From: Planctomycetales bacterium
GTDB taxonomy: Bacteria > Planctomycetota > Phycisphaerae > SM23-33
Reading direction: 5' to 3'
DNA length: 64,000 nucleotides
NCBI GenBank assembly: GCA_030612725.1
Contig: JAUWNJ010000005.1
Location: 62,001-126,000 of the forward strand
Made by a program: the position numbers and the translations under genes. The notes below the pieces were generated by a model. The model was given only the letters and a program-made list of their open reading frames with translations. It ran no database searches and was not told the DNA's origin. Below are positions 495 through 11,177 of the stretch, in pieces. Within the stretch, counting starts at the first letter, position 1. Every line of letters starts with the position of its first letter.

Positions 495-1421
495 CTACAC
501 CGATATTGCCGATTGGGGGCTGTGGGACATTACTTCCGCGAACAGTTCCTCGCCCCATTGCCCGCGAATTGCACCAAGTTCAACCTCGCTGCATCGCTCC
601 AACAGGCCGCTACCGTGTACGAAAAGCTCCGTAAGCAGCATAGGGTCGGAAAAAAACCTGTCCGACATTATCTGCCAGGTACTGACATACTGGTAATAGG
701 GGTTGTCGTCAACATAGTATCTCTTGAGAAACAACTCTGCTTCGTCTTGACCATCTGTGATGTCCTGCAATACATTGCTCAGACCAGACAGATCGAACCG
801 AACAACCACAACCGGATCCTCGATTTCCTTAGAGTAACTCCGGACCTCACCGATTTGGTCAAAACCGAGCAGTTTATAGAATCTAGCATGCCCTGGGCTT
901 ACAGTGCCCAGGAAATCCGTGCAGCCGACCGCCAGCGCATGGGCAAACGAGCATCGCATCAGTTCAGTCATAACGGCGCTGTTGCGGTGAGAATCCGCAA
1001 CAATCCAATTGGTACCTTCACATATCTTTCGCCCTTGGGTCCGAAGTCCATCCACCTCGGTCTTGAAGGCTTTATCTGTAGGCAAGCCGAGTTCGGGGCT
1101 GTCCACTACAACGCTGGTTACACCCACAACTTCGTTACCAACCTTGGCGATGAACGTGGCGGTTTCCGGCAATGCCTCGAAAGATCGGATGCGAATACCG
1201 GTTTCATCCGGCTGAATGTATCCCTGTGCTACGAAAATGTCATGAACCAGTCTATAGGCCCCAGCAATATCCTCAAGCGTCGTCGCTCTTGTGATCTCCG
1301 CTCCCTGCATATCATTACTGAAAAGCCCGGAACGCTTCAGCAAGGCCATTCTGCGGCTTGTCGTCCTATGATCTGTTGCTGATTTCCCCCACTTTTTGGT
1401 AACCGTGGCTATTTCCGCCAT
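495..1421 (-). CDS. FeeM-like / GNAT-fold N-acyltransferase
   Basis: A 308-residue cytoplasmic protein. Residues ~40-215 look like the FeeM/PEP-CTERM-associated acyltransferase branch of the GNAT and autoinducer-synthase fold: an N-terminal YRLVHDIFVAQGY segment, a central V(V)GVTSVV strand, EGTNWIVADSHRN leading into a helix, and the typical GTVSPGHARFYKLLGFD near the end of the fold. Known FeeM joins a fatty acyl group from acyl carrier protein to an amino acid; relatives co-occur with exosortase/PEP-CTERM systems. The substrate here is unknown. The ATG is preceded by AGGAGGA at 7 nt, so the start is firm. It is read away from the PEP-CTERM cluster and separated from it by two terminator hairpins, so it probably has its own promoter. 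Confidence 0.7.
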   Translation of the reverse strand: MAEIATVTKKWGKSATDHRTTSRRMALLKRSGLFSNDMQGAEITRATTLEDIAGAYRLVHDIFVAQGYIQPDETGIRIRSFEALPETATFIAKVGNEVVGVTSVVVDSPELGLPTDKAFKTEVDGLRTQGRKICEGTNWIVADSHRNSAVMTELMRCSFAHALAVGCTDFLGTVSPGHARFYKLLGFDQIGEVRSYSKEIEDPVVVVRFDLSGLSNVLQDITDGQDEAELFLKRYYVDDNPYYQYVSTWQIMSDRFFSDPMLLTELFVHGSGLLERCSEVELGAIRGQWGEELFAEVMSHSPQSAISV

Positions 1422-1712: not shown

Positions 1713-2600
1713 CTAATGGACGTTCCTTCTGCGGCGGATATAACCGAACAAGCCTGCTCCCCCAAGGGAAATGGTCAGTATCGTTATCGGCTCGGGGATC
1801 GGCGGCTCGTTAGAAACGGGGGGGGTGGGCGTCCGGCTCGTACCGTACCAGAAATCGACGTTATCGAGGTGTTCGGTAACGTCGAAATTGCTGGGCAACC
1901 CGCTCAAGGTAAAAACCACCGAATGCTTTATAAGTGGATCGGGATTGTCCGTCGGGGCGTTCCACGCCACTTTACTGTTTCCCGTGTAGGGGTCATCGTT
2001 GATGCTGGTCAGGCCGTACTGTAGCCCGTCGGGGCATAGCGGCTCGGCAAGGTCGGCGCCTGGAAATAGGTCGTGGGGTCCGACAAGATCAATACCGGTG
2101 GAACTGATCCCCTGATCGGGCCTCGGCGGGGGCAGTTCGTCGTCTCGTTGCCAGTAGGCCCACTCTCCGCCCACAACGCCGCCGGCCGGTTGACTGTCAA
2201 ACAAAACGATGCTGCCGGAGGCCAGTACGGCGCTTTCCGGAGTCAACGTCGGATCGCTTTCCAGGTCGAAAAATACCGCTGTGAGGACTTCCTCAGGCAC
2301 AAGAACGTCAGCGCCCATGTTGGACAGTATTACTTCCAGGTAATCCTTTCCATCGCTAGTAAAACTGCGAAACGCAGCACTCGCTGCCCGTTGGTCTTCA
2401 CCGAAAGAGAAGGTAACAGAATCACCCGCCATGGTTTGAGTATCATAACGGAAAACGATATTTGTGGTGGTCGCCCGGGCCGGCAAAGCCACAATCAGAA
2501 ACCACCCCGCTGCCACCAATAGCGCCAAATAGCCCCGCGATGCACCACGCCGGATGCCTCGTGCTTGCCTATTGGGCAGAATTTGGACTACGGTAATCAT
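1713..2600 (-). CDS. PEP-CTERM sorting domain protein, secreted
   Basis: 295 residues. The N-terminus (RRGASRGYLALLVAAGWFLIVALPARA) is a signal peptide ending near residue 43. The body is a beta-rich, acidic extracellular sequence with no domain I recognise. The C-terminus has IPEPITILTISLGGAG, a short hydrophobic stretch and RRRR, which is the PEP-CTERM signal recognised by exosortase in Gram-negative envelopes. The start ATG has AAGGAA about 8 nt upstream. It is the last of a minus-strand series of PEP-CTERM genes and is followed by two hairpins. Confidence 0.85.
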   Translation of the reverse strand: MITVVQILPNRQARGIRRGASRGYLALLVAAGWFLIVALPARATTTNIVFRYDTQTMAGDSVTFSFGEDQRAASAAFRSFTSDGKDYLEVILSNMGADVLVPEEVLTAVFFDLESDPTLTPESAVLASGSIVLFDSQPAGGVVGGEWAYWQRDDELPPPRPDQGISSTGIDLVGPHDLFPGADLAEPLCPDGLQYGLTSINDDPYTGNSKVAWNAPTDNPDPLIKHSVVFTLSGLPSNFDVTEHLDNVDFWYGTSRTPTPPVSNEPPIPEPITILTISLGGAGLFGYIRRRRNVH

Positions 2601-5029: not shown

Positions 5030-5920
5030 TCACGCCAGTTTCCGTTTGCGGATATATCCGGCCAGTCCGGCGATACCCATCCCGACGGCCAGCACCGTCA
5101 GGGGTTCGGGCGTGTGCTTGGTCAGCGGGTCATTATTCAGTATCTTGGTGTTTTCGTCGAATATGTCGTAGAGGCATCCCTCTGGGGCCTGGTAGCCATA
5201 GTGACTGGCGAGGATACCCAAGTCGCCTACGCCCACACAGGCGTCAAGGTTGAAATCTCCGGTGGCCCATTGGGCTTCGCCGACGGTTCCGTAATTGCTC
5301 GCCAGGATGCCCAGGTCGCCTACGCCAACAGCACCATCCGCATTGGCGTCACCGGGAGCAACGTTGTACAGGAAAAACAGATTTTGCACCGCGATGGAAG
5401 GGCCGGCGATCAATTCGGGCGGGAGCGTGGACCAGGGGATGGCGACCTCAACGGCCTCGTCAATGGCAAAATCGACCTCGCCGAGGTCCTTCCAACCGTT
5501 GTCGTACTGGATCAGGTGCATCTTGTCGGATCCCAGACCGTACCCGTCGTTGTACGTCAGGCCGAAGCGATGGGCCGGCCCGCCGCCGGAATAAAGGTTG
5601 AAGTAAAAATTCAGGTACGGGTTATCGGCTCCAGCGGCGGCCAGGCCAATCTTGTCGCCATAGACAGTAACGACCACGTAGAGGCTATTGTTGCCGTCGT
5701 CCATCATTATATGCTTGACGTCATAGTTGTCCGGCAGGTCCGGTTCATTCTGGTCAGAAATGACGACGTTTGCGCCGCTCCATTCGTCATAGGGGGTGAT
5801 CTTTCCGTCAACGGTGATGCCACCGGCCTGTGTCGGCCAGGTCAGCCCGGTCATCAAAATTGCGCCCAGCACCCACCACGTCGCCCTTGCCCGCTTTAGT
5901 TGTAAGGTTCTGTACATCAT
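5030..5920 (-). CDS. Dockerin type I and PEP-CTERM protein
   Basis: 296 residues from the ATG at 5920 (AAGGAG 8 nt upstream). The signal peptide region is MMYRTLQLKRARATWWVLGA onward. Residues ~30-165 form a beta-rich domain of unknown family. Two calcium-binding dockerin repeats follow (GDANADGAVGVGDLGILASN and GDFNLDACVGVGDLGILASH), then a PEP-CTERM tail (TPEPLTVLAVGMGIAGLAGY, RKRKLA). Dockerins normally bind cohesins, so this protein may be both sorted and docked on the surface. The start codon overlaps the stop of the sugar transferase as TGATG, so the two are translationally coupled in one operon. Confidence 0.88.
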   Translation of the reverse strand: MMYRTLQLKRARATWWVLGAILMTGLTWPTQAGGITVDGKITPYDEWSGANVVISDQNEPDLPDNYDVKHIMMDDGNNSLYVVVTVYGDKIGLAAAGADNPYLNFYFNLYSGGGPAHRFGLTYNDGYGLGSDKMHLIQYDNGWKDLGEVDFAIDEAVEVAIPWSTLPPELIAGPSIAVQNLFFLYNVAPGDANADGAVGVGDLGILASNYGTVGEAQWATGDFNLDACVGVGDLGILASHYGYQAPEGCLYDIFDENTKILNNDPLTKHTPEPLTVLAVGMGIAGLAGYIRKRKLA

Positions 5921-6576
5921 CAGTGACTCTCCTTGTCGTGAAATTTGGCCATCGTGACCGCCATGATTCGTAATTCCTTGCTCCACTTGCGGTGTTCGAT
6001 ATATTCCAGGTCCGCTTCGAGTTTGCGTTTGAATGCCTTGACACTTGTGTCATAACCGTTCCGGATCTGTGCCAGCCCGGTGATCCCGGGCCGGACGGAA
6101 AGCCTTTTCCTGACGTCAGGATAGACCTTTTCGAGTTCGTCCAGAATTTCGGGGCGCTCCGGGCGGGGACCGACCAGAGACATCTCCCCCTTGACCACGT
6201 TGACGAGTTGTGGGAACTCATCTATATGACTGTGACGCATCCACCGACACCAGCGAATCACCCGGGGATCATTATCCTGGGCCCAAATGGCCTTGGCGTC
6301 CGATTCGGCATTGATGCGCATCGTCCGCATCTTGTACATCCAGAACGGCTTGCCGTCCTTACCGAGACGAATCTGCGTGTAGAAGACGGACCCTTTGCTC
6401 GATACCTTGATGATGACCGCGCAAATCATCAGAATCGGTAGTGAGAGCACCAGAGCGACAGTCCCGAGGATAATGTCCACAACCTCTTTGGCCATTTCGA
6501 AATATCGGCGCGCCAGATGTGTCGATAAAGCGGCAATGCCTCCCCCAACCGCAACGAGTGTTATCGGTTCAGGCAT
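5920..6576 (-). CDS. Bacterial sugar transferase with an N-terminal PEP-CTERM-like segment
   Basis: 218 residues. From about residue 27 it matches the polyprenyl-phosphate sugar-1-phosphate transferase family (WcaJ/PssY core): a membrane re-entrant segment (DIILGTVALVLSLPILMICA), FYTQIRLGKDGKPFWMYKMRTM, then DEFPQLVNVVKGEMSLVGPRPE and RPGITGLAQI. Such enzymes load the first sugar phosphate onto undecaprenyl phosphate for exopolysaccharide or glycan assembly. It is a short, core-only member. Unusually, residues 1-24 read MPEPITLVAVGGGIAALSTH then LARR, which has the PEP, hydrophobic stretch and basic pair of a PEP-CTERM signal, but at the N-terminus. The start is firm: AAAGGAGG lies 6 nt upstream. 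It is coupled to the dockerin gene. Confidence 0.92.
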   Translation of the reverse strand: MPEPITLVAVGGGIAALSTHLARRYFEMAKEVVDIILGTVALVLSLPILMICAVIIKVSSKGSVFYTQIRLGKDGKPFWMYKMRTMRINAESDAKAIWAQDNDPRVIRWCRWMRHSHIDEFPQLVNVVKGEMSLVGPRPERPEILDELEKVYPDVRKRLSVRPGITGLAQIRNGYDTSVKAFKRKLEADLEYIEHRKWSKELRIMAVTMAKFHDKESH

Positions 6577-7024
6577 GATATTCCTCCTTTGAATACCAAT
6601 CAGAATTCCGGATAAATCCGAAAGAATTCGCTTGAACCCAACTCGGTCTTTTACGTATAATTAACATAGGTTCACCGGAACGGGCATGTGAACGCCCGCC
6701 CCGGTCTCCGCGGTGGATCAGCACAGGCGGTCAAGGCATGTTGCTGGTTCGCCGCTTTTTTACATTTCCTATTGCTGCAAAGACTGCTCCTCTAGCACAA
6801 CGGAAATAACCGTTATTTTGATTTGCTTGCCCTTGTCAAAATCGCAAAGCCGCAAATAAAACGTAACACCGCTTTCAATAAGCGAACCTTCCTGACAATC
6901 CAGACAAACGCAACCAACGGCTTCTTTCTTTTCGGAACTTCCCTGCTCACGAAATGAAACATCTCTCTGCTGCTCGCTACATTAAACCACAAATCTCGAT
7001 TTTTGCAAGACAAAAATCTTAAAA
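6577..7024 (-). other. Long untranslated leader of the sugar transferase operon
   Basis: About 440 bp without a convincing gene. If the promoter at 7025-7072 is used, this is the 5' leader. It contains a hairpin with arms GGGCATG and its near-complement around 6683-6705, and the short palindrome TTCGGATTTATCCGGAA near 6611. A possible 66-codon frame at 6813-7013 has no ribosome site and no recognisable content. Confidence 0.4.
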
Positions 7025-7072
7025 ATTATAGCGGCGTTATCGCGTACGCAGTGCGTATGCGTAATACGCACT
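7025..7072 (-). promoter_or_regulatory. LuxR-type operator and promoter
   Basis: A perfect 9-bp inverted repeat AGTGCGTAT-N5-ATACGCACT lies at 7050-7072. After 19 bp comes a consensus -10, TATAAT (7030 to 7025 on the minus strand). The predicted start site is near 7018, which puts the operator centre at about -43, the position used by LuxR-type activators. No good -35 is present, as expected for an activated promoter. It reads toward the sugar transferase. A related site with the same geometry precedes the luxR gene (8902-8922). Confidence 0.6.
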
Positions 7073-7192
7073 ACGGGCGTTTTCCTGCTTCACACCTAAT
7101 GACCACTTATACTGTCCAGATAGACCATATATTCGTTCTTTCTCGAGCCTTGCCAACCGGCAGTGCTGCCAGTTCCACCCATAAAAAGTCTA

Positions 7193-7236
7193 TTGGACCG
7201 GCCGCCCCGTGAGGGAAAAGAGGGCGACCGGACCAA
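7193..7236 (-). terminator. Strong terminator-like hairpin
   Basis: A 15-bp GC-rich stem (7193-7207 with 7222-7236, one mismatch) is followed on the minus strand by TAGACTTTTT. It would end transcripts of the PEP-CTERM gene at 7592 and shield the operator at 7050 from read-through. Confidence 0.6.
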
Positions 7237-7591
7237 AAGATCCCCAAAATGAGGCTTTTGCTGCCTGTCTGGCGATCCGGCATTTCGCCGGATTCTCAAG
7301 CACCCCGACCCTTAAGTCGGCTTTTATCAGGCACCGTCGGGCGGACTGTAACGTCCGCCCCGGCACCTTGCATCGCCGGCTTCCTTTCGAGGACCAAAGG
7401 GGCCGGCAGACAAAGGGGCGGGCTTTGACCTTCGCCCCTGCCAGCACCCCTAAGTCCCGCGTCAGGACAACCTGCGCCTAATCTCTTCACTTTTCTCACG
7501 GGCAATCCAAGCCGGTGCAGGCTCGCTGATGTGAACGAGCCTGCGTACGGCCTTGGAGAGCGCCTCACCAAGAGAGGTAACCACTTGGCTA
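7237..7591 (-). other. Hairpin-rich untranslated region after a PEP-CTERM gene
   Basis: No gene is seen. On the minus strand several strong stems follow one another: 7517-7525/7536-7544 (9 bp), 7339-7346/7353-7360 (8 bp), 7305-7309/7316-7320, and 7275-7281/7287-7293 (7 bp), before the terminator at 7193. This could be a structured RNA or simply a chain of palindromic repeats. I do not match it to a known RNA family. Confidence 0.4.
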
Positions 7592-8242
7592 TCACATCCG
7601 TTTGCGACGCCGCCGCAATAAGACCAGACCACCCACCGCCAGCAGACTCATTGTCACCGGCTCCGGGACAGGGCCAACCACATCGCCGGAACTGATCACA
7701 CCATTGATCACGTTGCCTGCAATCATTCCCGGCACGCCATCGCTCAGGATATACAATGTTACACTGTCTTCGGGCGGGTCTATCGCATAACTCGGTATCG
7801 TCCATGCCGGGAATCCGAACGAGATCGTCATCTCGGCGGCAGTGTCCACGCTTGCCCCGGCGGGCGACTGAGTTCCCAGTGTAAATCCTGTCGGCGCATT
7901 GTCGGTCAGATACCCCAGCGTTGTTGACGCAGAAGCGTCGAAGAACGGGCTGCACGTGAAAACCTCTATGACGCTGTTGCCCGTTGTGCCGGTGTTCCTG
8001 ATCTGATAGAGATACATGTAGTTGTCCGCCCCATCGGTGAATGCCTGGCTGATAACCTCGGCCTGCATATTGCCGACGGACATGTCGGTGGTCATCGGCG
8101 AACCGATGGCGCCGGCCGAACCGCTGAGCAAATTGTTGAAATCCTCAGGCACCGGCGCTGCCGACACAGGCGATGCCAAGGCCGCTGCGGACATTCCCGA
8201 TACAATCACCACTACTACTGCTGCTTTCAGTACGCACTTCAC
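7592..8242 (-). CDS. PEP-CTERM sorting domain protein, secreted
   Basis: 216 residues if the GTG at 8242 is used: it has AGAAGGGAGAGGA just upstream, whereas an upstream TTG at 8266 would place that ribosome site inside the gene. The signal peptide is KCVLKAAVVVVIVSGMSAAA onward. The body is beta-rich and contains DGADNYMYLYQIRNTG, resembling surface beta-sandwich modules. The tail is VPEPVTMSLLAVGGLVLL then RRRRKRM. It lies downstream of the single-domain LuxR gene, 258 bp away, in the same direction. Confidence 0.83.
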   Translation of the reverse strand: MKCVLKAAVVVVIVSGMSAAALASPVSAAPVPEDFNNLLSGSAGAIGSPMTTDMSVGNMQAEVISQAFTDGADNYMYLYQIRNTGTTGNSVIEVFTCSPFFDASASTTLGYLTDNAPTGFTLGTQSPAGASVDTAAEMTISFGFPAWTIPSYAIDPPEDSVTLYILSDGVPGMIAGNVINGVISSGDVVGPVPEPVTMSLLAVGGLVLLRRRRKRM

Positions 8243-8305
8243 AATTCCTCTCCCTTCTGAAATCAAGGCTCAATTGCCTACCCGTTCCAATCTTTCTGAC
8301 GTGCC

Positions 8306-8322
8306 TGTCCTCCATGAGGACA
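8306..8322 (-). other. Stem-loop between luxR gene and PEP-CTERM gene
   Basis: TGTCCTC/GAGGACA with a three-base loop, within the 258-bp space 8243-8500. No T-run follows on the minus strand. It may mark an RNA-processing or leader structure. Confidence 0.35.
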
Positions 8323-8500
8323 GAAACACTCTTACCAAACGGGAACTCGGCCAGTGCGGCCTCAGGCAGAATACGCTAGAGCGAATGACGCTCCTACCCT
8401 CACTATCTGAATCGCTCCACCGCTCCCAAAACGGGCGAGAGCAACTATTCAACTATAGGTTACTGCAAATCCGATATCTCACAAGCCGGTAATTATACTG

Positions 8501-8785
8501 TCATTGCCAGCGGGGGCAGCCTTTGCAACCGGCGCGAAACTGGCGAAAGATATTCACGATCAGTTCATTTCGATCCTGGACATCCAGTTTTACAAACATC
8601 CTGCTCATGTATGTGCGAACCGTGGAAACAGCGATACCAAGTTCTTGGGCAATCTGCTTATCACTCGAACCGCCGAAAAGTTGACGAGCAATTTCTGCCT
8701 GCTTTGGCGACAATCCAAGGTGGTCGGACAGATTGACCCATTCAGTCTTTGTGAAAACTTCGCTTATCGGCATCACCATCGGCAT
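8501..8785 (-). CDS. Single-domain LuxR-type transcription regulator
   Basis: 94 residues, nearly all a LuxR/GerE helix-turn-helix: LSPKQAEIARQLFGGSSDKQ, then IAQELGIAVSTVRTYMSRMF and VKLDVQDRNELIVNIFRQF. No receiver, PAS or autoinducer-binding domain is present, so activity is probably set by expression level or partners. The C-terminus CKGCPRW contains a CxxC that might bind metal or sense redox. A 21-bp inverted repeat 117 bp upstream (8902-8922) resembles the operator at 7050, suggesting self-regulation and control of the sugar-transferase/dockerin operon. The ribosome site is weak (GGGGA). Confidence 0.85.
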   Translation of the reverse strand: MPMVMPISEVFTKTEWVNLSDHLGLSPKQAEIARQLFGGSSDKQIAQELGIAVSTVRTYMSRMFVKLDVQDRNELIVNIFRQFRAGCKGCPRWQ

Positions 8786-8876
8786 CGCGTTTTCCCCACG
8801 AGTGCATGGTCATCTACTACAACACGGCTGTATGATAACACATATTCCATTTTTTTGCGCCCCAAAAATCACAAAA

Positions 8877-8922
8877 TGGCTACGGTGTTTTAGCGTACAG
8901 GATGCGTATAATACATACGTAT
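8877..8922 (-). promoter_or_regulatory. LuxR-type operator upstream of the luxR gene
   Basis: ATGCGTAT-N5-ATACGTAT (8902-8922; 7 of 8 positions complementary). The hexamer 19 bp further on the minus strand, at the place equivalent to the -10 of the 7025 promoter, is the poor TAGCCA. GTACGC is conserved in the spacer of both sites at the same offset. Confidence 0.5.
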
Positions 8923-9134
8923 CGTGGGCTGGTGCCATCCACGTTCCCTCGGTTTTCTACTGGCATTAACCCACTACAGCGATCTACGAGGGTAATGGTT
9001 GGTAACGAGTGATGGAATATTCGTATCTCTCGCTCATGCAGGATGTTAGAGTGCCAGAAGGCCTGCGGCCATTTCGCCTCTGGAGTTCCATTCCCAACCC
9101 TGAATGTCTCTGTCGGGGCTAACCGTAACGCGCA
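8923..9134. other. Spacer between two luxR-type genes
   Basis: No gene. A hairpin with arms CCAGA and TCTGG enclosing GGCCGCAGGCC lies near 9055-9085, downstream of the PAS/LuxR gene, and may end its transcript. Confidence 0.4.
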
Positions 9135-11177
9135 TTAGTTTTCTGCGTGACTGGACATATAATTTTCAAGGTAGGTAGAGAGATTCACATCCGTATTTGT
9201 GATTTGCAGTTTGCGGCGGATGTGTTCGCGGTGCTTATTAACAGTGGCAGATGAGATATGGTACAGATCGGCAATCTGTTTGGTTGACATATCCTTCCTT
9301 ATCAGGTTGCAGATACGTATCTCGGTCGGGGTAAGAGATGTAAATTCTTTCGAGAGACTGTCGGCGAAAGGAAGAGTGATATCCTTGATAGTTTCCTTCA
9401 GCAAGTCCAGATATTTTCTTTGGCCTTTGGGAAGTTCATGTTCAAGGGTGTGCAGCAGCGGCATGACGATCTTCTCGATATTACCGACAATCCGCCGGCC
9501 AAATTCCTTCTTCTCATCCTGAATCCCGGCCATAATCTCCCGCAAGGCGATGTTCTTCTGCTCCAGGGCAGACTGCTCTGCAAGCAACTGCCGCCGGGCC
9601 TGAATACGTTCGATGTTTCTTCCGATTCGTGCTGCAATTGTATCTATCAAGTATTTCTCTTCTTTCAGGAACGGATTTTTATCGACAGACAAGTTTGCCT
9701 TGAGGCAAAAGATCTCCACGACGCCGATCTTCTCTCCGGCGACCAGGATGTCGGTGGCCAATTTCGTTTGTGATTTCCTGAAATTAGATGTTCGATACTC
9801 CTTGTCACTAACTGTGATTCTTGCGCATGCGGTTTTCGGGCGTTGGCATGCATGGGGCAGAACATTTACGATTCCCTGAAGCAAGGACTCAAGAGAATCG
9901 TTGTATTTGTTCACAACCTCGGTAATGTCATAGAGGCAATTGAGTTCCCTTACACGCATGCGCAAATCATACTCGCTCTCCCGCAGCGTCTCTTCGGCCT
10001 TCTTGCGTTCCGTGATGTCTATCGCAAAAGCAAGCATTCCGACAGGTTCGCCCTCTTCGTCTTTAAACAGAGTTATTGCCATCTCCGAGGGAAACGTGGT
10101 TCCGTCCTTTCGCATCTGTTCACTTTCACCCATGTACCGACCGTTGCGTTTGACCTTCTCGTTGAACTGGTTTACGTAAGTTTTTATCTGCTCGGAGGTG
10201 TGGAACACACTGATATGTTCACCGACCAGTTCTTCCCCGGTTTCGTACCCGTGCATCCTTGCCCATGACGGATTGACGAACTGAAGGATTCCGTCAAGGT
10301 CGGCCATACCGATTCCCTCGACCGCCTGTTCGGCGATCATCGCCAGACGCCGGAGCCTGTCCTCCGATTTCTTACGCTCAGTGATGTTTCGGAGAATAGT
10401 GACTATCTGCACGACCTTACCCTTCTCGATTATCGGTATCTTTCGCGTCTCTGTGTCGAATGCCTCGTCGTCAAGTGTTGTGGTCTCCTCGCGAACAAGT
10501 GTCTCACCGGTTTGAAATACGTTGTGATACTCATCACGCACTTCTTCCGGCAGGAATGGAAAGGCCTCAAAGACGGTTAGTCCTACCAGGTCGCTTTCCA
10601 GACCCAATTGCCTGCACCACTGCACCAAAGCCGGATTACACAGGACGATCCGCAGGTCTTTATCGACGACGTGAATCGCATCACTAATTGAATTGAGCGT
10701 GGTCTGATATTGGAGTTCCGATGCTCGCAATGCATCTTCAACCCGCCTTTGCTCGGTAATGTCGTGGTCGATACCGATGATGTGATATTTCTCGCCGATC
10801 TTGAGATGGGTCGCGGTCCATTCGTAGCAGTTATCCTTGCCGTCCGGACGGAGCCAGGAGGCAGTGCCTTCCAACCGCACGCCATCCGGAAGCGCACCAT
10901 CCAGAAAGTGATCACGTAACAATCCGTCGGGGGCTGCTTTCCAACGGAGGAACTCGTTAAGGTCTTCCGACCTCATCAGTTCCTCCCTGCTGCGCCCCGA
11001 CATTTCGACGTACCGGTCGTTGCACAGCACCAGCCGACGATTGTCCGTCTTCGGATCGTACTCAGTAATGACGATGCCGTTAGAGGTGTTTTCCATTATC
11101 AGCCGCAACCAGGCCTCGCTCTCCTGCAACGGCTTTAACTCTTTTTCTTTCCGGTTGGATGCCCGCTTTTTTCGCAT
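9135..11177 (-). CDS. Multi-PAS, GAF-like sensor with C-terminal LuxR helix-turn-helix
   Basis: 680 residues, cytoplasmic with no membrane segment. Order: PAS 1 (~20-143, ending IGIDHDITEQRR), PAS 2 (~150-270, ending ILRNITERKK), PAS 3 (~275-397, LAFAIDITERKK), a GAF-like region (~405-525), a coiled-coil linker (~525-605) and a LuxR HTH (~612-675: LTPTEIRICNLIRKDMSTKQ, IADLYHISSATVNKHREHI). There is no histidine kinase domain, so ligand or redox sensing is likely coupled straight to DNA binding. The start ATG has AAGGGAGA upstream. It stands alone between the luxR region and tRNA-Arg. Its signal and targets are unknown. Confidence 0.88.
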   Translation of the reverse strand: MRKKRASNRKEKELKPLQESEAWLRLIMENTSNGIVITEYDPKTDNRRLVLCNDRYVEMSGRSREELMRSEDLNEFLRWKAAPDGLLRDHFLDGALPDGVRLEGTASWLRPDGKDNCYEWTATHLKIGEKYHIIGIDHDITEQRRVEDALRASELQYQTTLNSISDAIHVVDKDLRIVLCNPALVQWCRQLGLESDLVGLTVFEAFPFLPEEVRDEYHNVFQTGETLVREETTTLDDEAFDTETRKIPIIEKGKVVQIVTILRNITERKKSEDRLRRLAMIAEQAVEGIGMADLDGILQFVNPSWARMHGYETGEELVGEHISVFHTSEQIKTYVNQFNEKVKRNGRYMGESEQMRKDGTTFPSEMAITLFKDEEGEPVGMLAFAIDITERKKAEETLRESEYDLRMRVRELNCLYDITEVVNKYNDSLESLLQGIVNVLPHACQRPKTACARITVSDKEYRTSNFRKSQTKLATDILVAGEKIGVVEIFCLKANLSVDKNPFLKEEKYLIDTIAARIGRNIERIQARRQLLAEQSALEQKNIALREIMAGIQDEKKEFGRRIVGNIEKIVMPLLHTLEHELPKGQRKYLDLLKETIKDITLPFADSLSKEFTSLTPTEIRICNLIRKDMSTKQIADLYHISSATVNKHREHIRRKLQITNTDVNLSTYLENYMSSHAEN

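Follow-up and report, generated by a model that had tools for sequence, protein, structure and literature searches.

The cis-antisense RNAs CopA/CopT of R1 and RNAI of pT181 control leaders. Control of PEP-CTERM genes has been described in Proteobacteria, where it involves PrsK, PrsR and PrsT together with sigma-54 (PMC1569441), and an RpoN-dependent PEP-CTERM gene has been reported (PMC9850573). PEP-CTERM and exosortase proteins occur in planctomycetes too (PMC1569441). The locus described here lies in a 64,000-nucleotide stretch of a Planctomycetales genome of the class Phycisphaerae (contig JAUWNJ010000005.1, positions 62,001 to 126,000; hereafter, the window). It resembles the proteobacterial system in that a common cis-regulatory site precedes PEP-CTERM genes with large intergenic regions upstream. 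Unlike that system, it has sigma70-like promoters, a LuxR-type dyad and a small RNA (sRNA), and no sigma-54 -24/-12 motif was found between 5022 and 11534 (19 in the whole window, against 25.8 expected). We consider it reasonably likely that two layers of control, a LuxR-type operator and the sRNA, act on a PEP-CTERM surface and glycan cluster.

Results

The cluster is encoded on the minus strand. It includes a 224-aa PEP-CTERM protein (7592–8266), a bacterial sugar transferase (PF02397; 5920–6576) and a predicted surface protein (5030–5986) with dockerin-like repeats and, by eye, a PEP-CTERM-like tail, which has no Pfam or NCBIfam match. Sugar transferases of the 5920–6576 ortholog group begin MPEPxT...ARRYF, and in six of eight this N-terminal segment matches positions 3–24 of the 24-position PEP-CTERM profile with E-values of 8.5e-4 to 0.15, below the curated cut-off. 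In this group a glycosyl-phosphotransferase would carry its PEP-CTERM-like signal N-terminally. The same cluster encodes an XDD4-family exosortase-dependent surface protein (1713–2600, minus strand; NF045504, E-value 2e-50), and at its end stands a FeeM-like N-acyl amino acid synthase (495–1421, minus strand), as in stieleriacine-type loci. A passage in PMC7293339, citing Craig et al. 2011, records the linkage of such synthases with PEP-CTERM genes.

The earlier note proposed that the sugar-transferase operon is expressed through a long leader, and this is supported: transcription from the promoter that we call promoter P2 (see below) would produce a leader of ~400 nt (6577–6974, minus strand). 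Complementary to this leader, on the opposite strand, there is almost certainly a genuine sRNA gene, as judged from its sequence features. A block kept in six genomes first emerged when PEP-N sugar-transferase leaders were compared; two covariance models (R1 and R2) traced the element across the class, and 33 copies were then aligned. In this alignment the A-run is the terminal U-run, and the 3' ATTATA the -10 TATAAT, of a gene on the opposite strand. In the window that gene spans ~94 nt (6668–6761, plus strand), forms two hairpins and would be antisense to the operon leader. Its sigma70-like promoter, TTGAAC-N18-TATAAT (6632–6661, plus strand), ranks joint first among promoter-like sites in the region, and its intrinsic terminator (6710–6761, plus strand) consists of a 13-bp stem (6710–6722/6743–6755) followed by UUUUUU. 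The terminator loop reads GUCAAGG here and GCCAAAG in many other copies, and the fold of the window sRNA has a z of -4.5.

These features recur among the copies. Most have a TTGACN-like -35 hexamer 16–18 bp beyond the -10, a promoter score of at least 9 is reached on the sRNA's own strand in 27 of 36 copies (gene strand, 2/36), and 30 of the 33 end in a T-run. The plus strand of the window combines its own promoter, an intrinsic terminator and a conserved structure. The 13-bp stem (hairpin P1) is 99.1% paired over 31 sequences and covaries in nine of 11 pairs, and the two hairpins together contain 85 double-change cells, compared with 32.7 after shuffling and no more than 27 after sliding. Read on the sRNA strand, the wobbles of hairpin P1 are 44 G.U versus 8 A.C (n = 52, 33 copies; binomial p 4e-7, the sequences being related), and those of hairpin P2 have no strand bias (28:21). 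Covariation and the 44:8 bias together indicate which strand is the RNA. A pattern scan of the genome contigs for the sRNA gave mostly chance matches.

Model R3 at E ≤ 1e-4 finds 50 copies in 22 of the 397 class genomes, and when one family was surveyed with greater sensitivity, further copies appeared in three of the carrier genomes and in one additional genome, which brings the total to ~60 copies in 23 Phycisphaerae genomes, with one to 16 in each. The largest number, 16, is in G362 after the family census; a complete genome (G087, a single 4.25-Mb contig) has three. The distribution is patchy, one family having carriers among 4 of its 39 genomes, and in a phylum sample of 392 genomes, whose share outside the class is not given, the three carriers are all Phycisphaerae.

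The copies have a characteristic genomic setting. Among those found at E ≤ 1e-6, 42 of 46 lie divergently to a gene whose product is exported or located at the surface, a count that has no genome-wide background for comparison and in which neighbour classes were assigned partly by signal sequence and motif; L146, L148, L154 and L268 are exceptional or unclear. Exported or surface neighbours likewise accompany each of the nine copies that the family census yielded last. As a rough background, 5 of the 41 large ORFs in the window have a PEP-CTERM-like tail and none encodes a prepilin. The neighbours comprise prepilins (NCBIfam GspG/ComGC/TIGR02532), PEP-CTERM, dockerin/LamG, Kelch, cadherin, PQQ and fimbrial-like proteins, and PEP-N sugar transferases. 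At prepilin genes the distance between the sRNA start and the start codon of the neighbour is often 20–95 nt, and this gap already contains the sRNA promoter, so the neighbour's mRNA probably begins further upstream and crosses the sRNA gene, which would make the sRNA antisense to its leader. The divergent orientation suits such complementarity in nearly all copies, with the mRNA start placed by inference. The sigma70 consensus reveals no gene-sense promoter ahead of the sRNA gene in most copies, and such promoters are not enriched there, so the overlap of leader and sRNA is argued mainly from the short gap. Separately, in several Sedimentisphaerales copies (L131, L133, L137, L138 and similar) hairpin P2 read in the gene sense is followed by a U-run, so the leader may have a terminator-like hairpin of its own.

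Judged from this arrangement, the chances that the sRNA would control its neighbour in cis appear evenly balanced. The family is patchy and reaches 16 copies per genome, so some of the adjacency may stem from duplication of cassettes. A rival reading is an sRNA that acts mainly in trans, or by protein titration, and stands beside surface genes through inheritance of sRNA-prepilin-PEP-CTERM cassettes. The similar loops of up to 16 copies in one genome, and the predominance of prepilin neighbours in multi-copy genomes, speak for this reading, but the same divergent orientation recurs beside many unrelated kinds of neighbour in many families, and we regard mainly trans action as rather unlikely.

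The second layer concerns two dyads, which the earlier note had described as matching LuxR-type operators flanking a single-domain LuxR gene. Both are present on the minus strand with 5-bp spacers, and GTACGC stands at a matching offset at the two sites, as claimed. Upstream of the sugar-transferase operon, dyad 1 of site A (7050–7072) is a perfect 9-5-9 inverted repeat, AGTGCGTAT-TACGC-ATACGCACT. At site B (8901–8923), between the gene for a PAS-LuxR regulator and that for a 94-residue LuxR protein, it reads GATACGTAT-GTATT-ATACGCATC, with eight of nine pairs matching. Dyad 1 is thus an odd, 23-bp element rather than the even 20-bp palindrome of the classical lux box. The window has four strand-matches to the dyad against 0.31 expected (0/100 shuffles), and in the whole 3.16-Mb genome RTRCGTATN5ATACGYAY occurs without mismatch only at sites A and B, with no match at one mismatch and three at two; the reversed-pattern control has none at up to one mismatch. 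The further dyads that had been predicted before other PEP-CTERM or glycan genes were absent from the motif scan of this genome. Near-matches at two to three mismatches (58 forward, 33 in the reversed control) are mostly noise, and exact matches in genome G050 lie within coding DNA and are taken as chance. Another palindrome, GCGTAG-Y-GAT-N-CTACGC, is unrelated to dyad 1 and has three or more occurrences in the genome (C58:27232, C10:48999 and C20:60020 of G000).

Sites A and B are alike across ~125 bp, beyond the dyads themselves. Aligned on their own, the 90 bp that follow the dyads score 61.5, compared with 25.3 ± 4.5 for dinucleotide-shuffled sequences (0/4000), and the blocks have in common dyad 1, GTACGC, a second dyad and an extended -10, at matching offsets. 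The second dyad is GATTTTTG-N5-CAAAAATC at site A (6998–7018, minus strand), where it overlaps the -35 region of promoter P2, and TTTTTG-N5-CAAAAA at site B (8852–8868, minus strand). The extended -10 of promoter P2 is TGGTTTAAT at site A (6981–6989, minus strand; TTGCAA 16 bp upstream) and TGTTATCAT at site B (8832–8840, minus strand), the latter giving the luxR gene a leader of ~40 nt. Promoter P1, the one proposed in the earlier note, has its TATAAT at 7025–7030 (minus strand). The centre of dyad 1 lies at approximately -43 counted from promoter P1 and approximately -87 from promoter P2.

Comparison with relatives bears on the function of the dyad. In a genome of another genus of the same family (G012), a one-mismatch dyad is found in the intergenic region between the orthologs of the PAS-LuxR gene (54% identical over the C-terminal 146 aa, the HTH region) and of the PEP-CTERM gene (57%), the place syntenic with site B, and the gene for the 94-residue LuxR is absent between them; the cross-genus evidence consists of this one site. 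The layout there is dyad-18-TATAAT-39-TATAAT, to be compared with dyad-19-hexamer-38-hexamer at sites A and B (dyad-19-TATAAT-38-TTTAAT at A). The -10 of promoter P2 is thus present at all three dyad sites, and also in a same-genus ortholog, and promoter P1 at two of the three, luxR being the one without it; together these layouts suggest that tandem promoters behind the dyad are a conserved arrangement. The same-genus ortholog (G003) encodes a sugar transferase 84% identical to that of the window, keeps the second dyad and the extended -10 (TGGTATAAG), and lacks upstream of the gene dyad 1, GTACGC and a TATAAT at the position of promoter P1. This genome carries the sRNA even though it is without dyad 1. 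The claim that operator-like dyads precede both luxR and the sugar-transferase operon is supported, and the third dyad, lying between PAS-LuxR and PEP-CTERM orthologs that have no gene for a 94-residue LuxR between them, argues that dyad 1 is probably an operator.

Two proteins are candidates to read it. The nearer is the 94-residue protein (8501–8785, minus strand), which is a single-domain LuxR protein as the note had it: Pfam matches the GerE HTH alone (PF00196, E-value 1.9e-13), and no receiver or autoinducer domain was found. The other is the 680-aa PAS-PAS-PAS-GerE regulator (PAS-LuxR; 9135–11177, minus strand; E-value 2e-11 for the same HTH). Homologs of the 94-residue protein, 41–57% identical, were found in 10 of the 60 genomes searched, the genome itself counted. 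At five of ten other loci they immediately precede a PEP-CTERM gene in the same orientation, and at a sixth they lie upstream of the gene for a 1981-aa surface protein, which makes the 94-residue LuxR a plausible regulator of surface genes. Its family (8501–8785 and L005–L017) has a C-terminal Cys pair after the last helix, ranging from CxxC to CxxxxC and then P; this pair, FRAGCKGCP in the window protein and FRxxCxxxxCP in general, is kept in most of the family and could serve metal binding or redox sensing.

The constant neighbour of dyad 1 is nevertheless the PAS-LuxR gene, set against a 94-residue gene that is missing beside the G012 dyad. We therefore favour the PAS-LuxR as the ligand, a candidate whose chances we place a little short of even; the 94-residue protein is a credible though unlikely alternative. 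The full model of the earlier note is distinctly unlikely. It held that the 94-residue LuxR binds both dyads and, in the manner of a class II activator, acts from around -42 on its own gene and on the operon, the latter having a ~440-nt leader. In keeping with it, the dyads lie on both sides of the luxR gene, a TATAAT follows by 19 bp at site A and by 18 bp in G012, the homologs stand before PEP-CTERM genes, and G003 lacks both a close homolog and dyad 1 at its sugar-transferase operon. The hexamer claimed at 19 bp after each dyad holds for site A, but at site B, the luxR site itself, the letters are AGCCAT and form no -10; none of the homologs has a similar dyad upstream at the loci inspected; and G003 retains promoter P2 without the dyad.

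It is more improbable still that sites A and B are alike merely through duplication of a promoter segment and that no LuxR protein reads them. Likeness over ~125 bp, more than the dyad, is what duplication would leave, but two outer pairs of dyad 1 differ between A and B by compensatory changes (A-T/G-C and G-C/A-T) that preserve the symmetry, and dyad and spacing are kept at the syntenic place in another genus.

Discussion

In the two-layer arrangement that we prefer, dyad 1 would serve as the operator in two promoter blocks, one before the luxR-PEP-CTERM genes and one before the sugar transferase-dockerin genes. The adjacent PAS-LuxR would bind it and probably activate both, and the 94-residue LuxR may act lower in the same cascade. 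As the second layer, the ~94-nt sRNA would be made from the strand opposite the sugar-transferase leader, using its own sigma70-like promoter and terminator, and would pair with the leader of the neighbouring mRNA, hairpin loops first. The outcome, we infer, would be less translation or premature termination. The element was first read as a riboswitch or attenuator acting in cis on the mRNA strand without a separate sRNA, and it does sit in a gene leader, folds on both strands and in several Sedimentisphaerales copies has the U-run after hairpin P2; this was dropped after the strand test as very improbable, since on that strand hairpin P1 has 8 G.U versus 44 A.C wobbles and so no sign of selection for structure, its pairing is 99.1% on the sRNA strand versus 84.3% for the comparable gene-strand helix in a smaller set, and the divergent promoter and terminator are conserved.

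More broadly, and tentatively, the sRNAs may form a lineage-specific antisense family that works as a post-transcriptional switch of Phycisphaerae surface proteins (prepilins, PEP-CTERM and dockerin/LamG proteins), with cross-talk among the copies through loops that they have in common, atop the LuxR-type operator circuit. The family offers a testable handle on the control of surface display in Phycisphaerae. The dyads illustrate that an operator pair spotted by eye can be tested through synteny, and that the regulator closest to a site is not always its likeliest reader.

None of the sources searched describes this sRNA family, although small and antisense RNAs are themselves of a known kind. 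No Rfam family matches the sRNA at its gathering score, the match to ncS035 (RF02870; 19.6 bits, well short of the 79-bit gathering score) being taken as chance, and no publication on RNAs of this sort turned up in the literature searches. On the protein side, the 94-residue LuxR resembles EpsA (TIGR03020, XrtB/PEP-CTERM-associated) in being a LuxR-type HTH protein tied to exosortase systems, but the model of EpsA spans 247 positions with a 170-bit cut-off, and the 94-residue protein matches its HTH alone, with 27 bits. By profile search its HTH is homologous to those of GerE/NarL-type proteins (PDB 1fse, 1je8 and VraR 7ve4), and GerE, too, is small and consists of a single domain (a 74-residue chain); the C-terminal Cys pair in most of the family, and the gene neighbours, set it apart from these. 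The sRNA in turn is most like CopA/CopT and RNAI, with two hairpins, a terminator and a divergent gene that would lie antisense within a leader, but the Phycisphaerae sRNAs are chromosomal, are present in many copies per genome, and have loops that are conserved rather than diverged.
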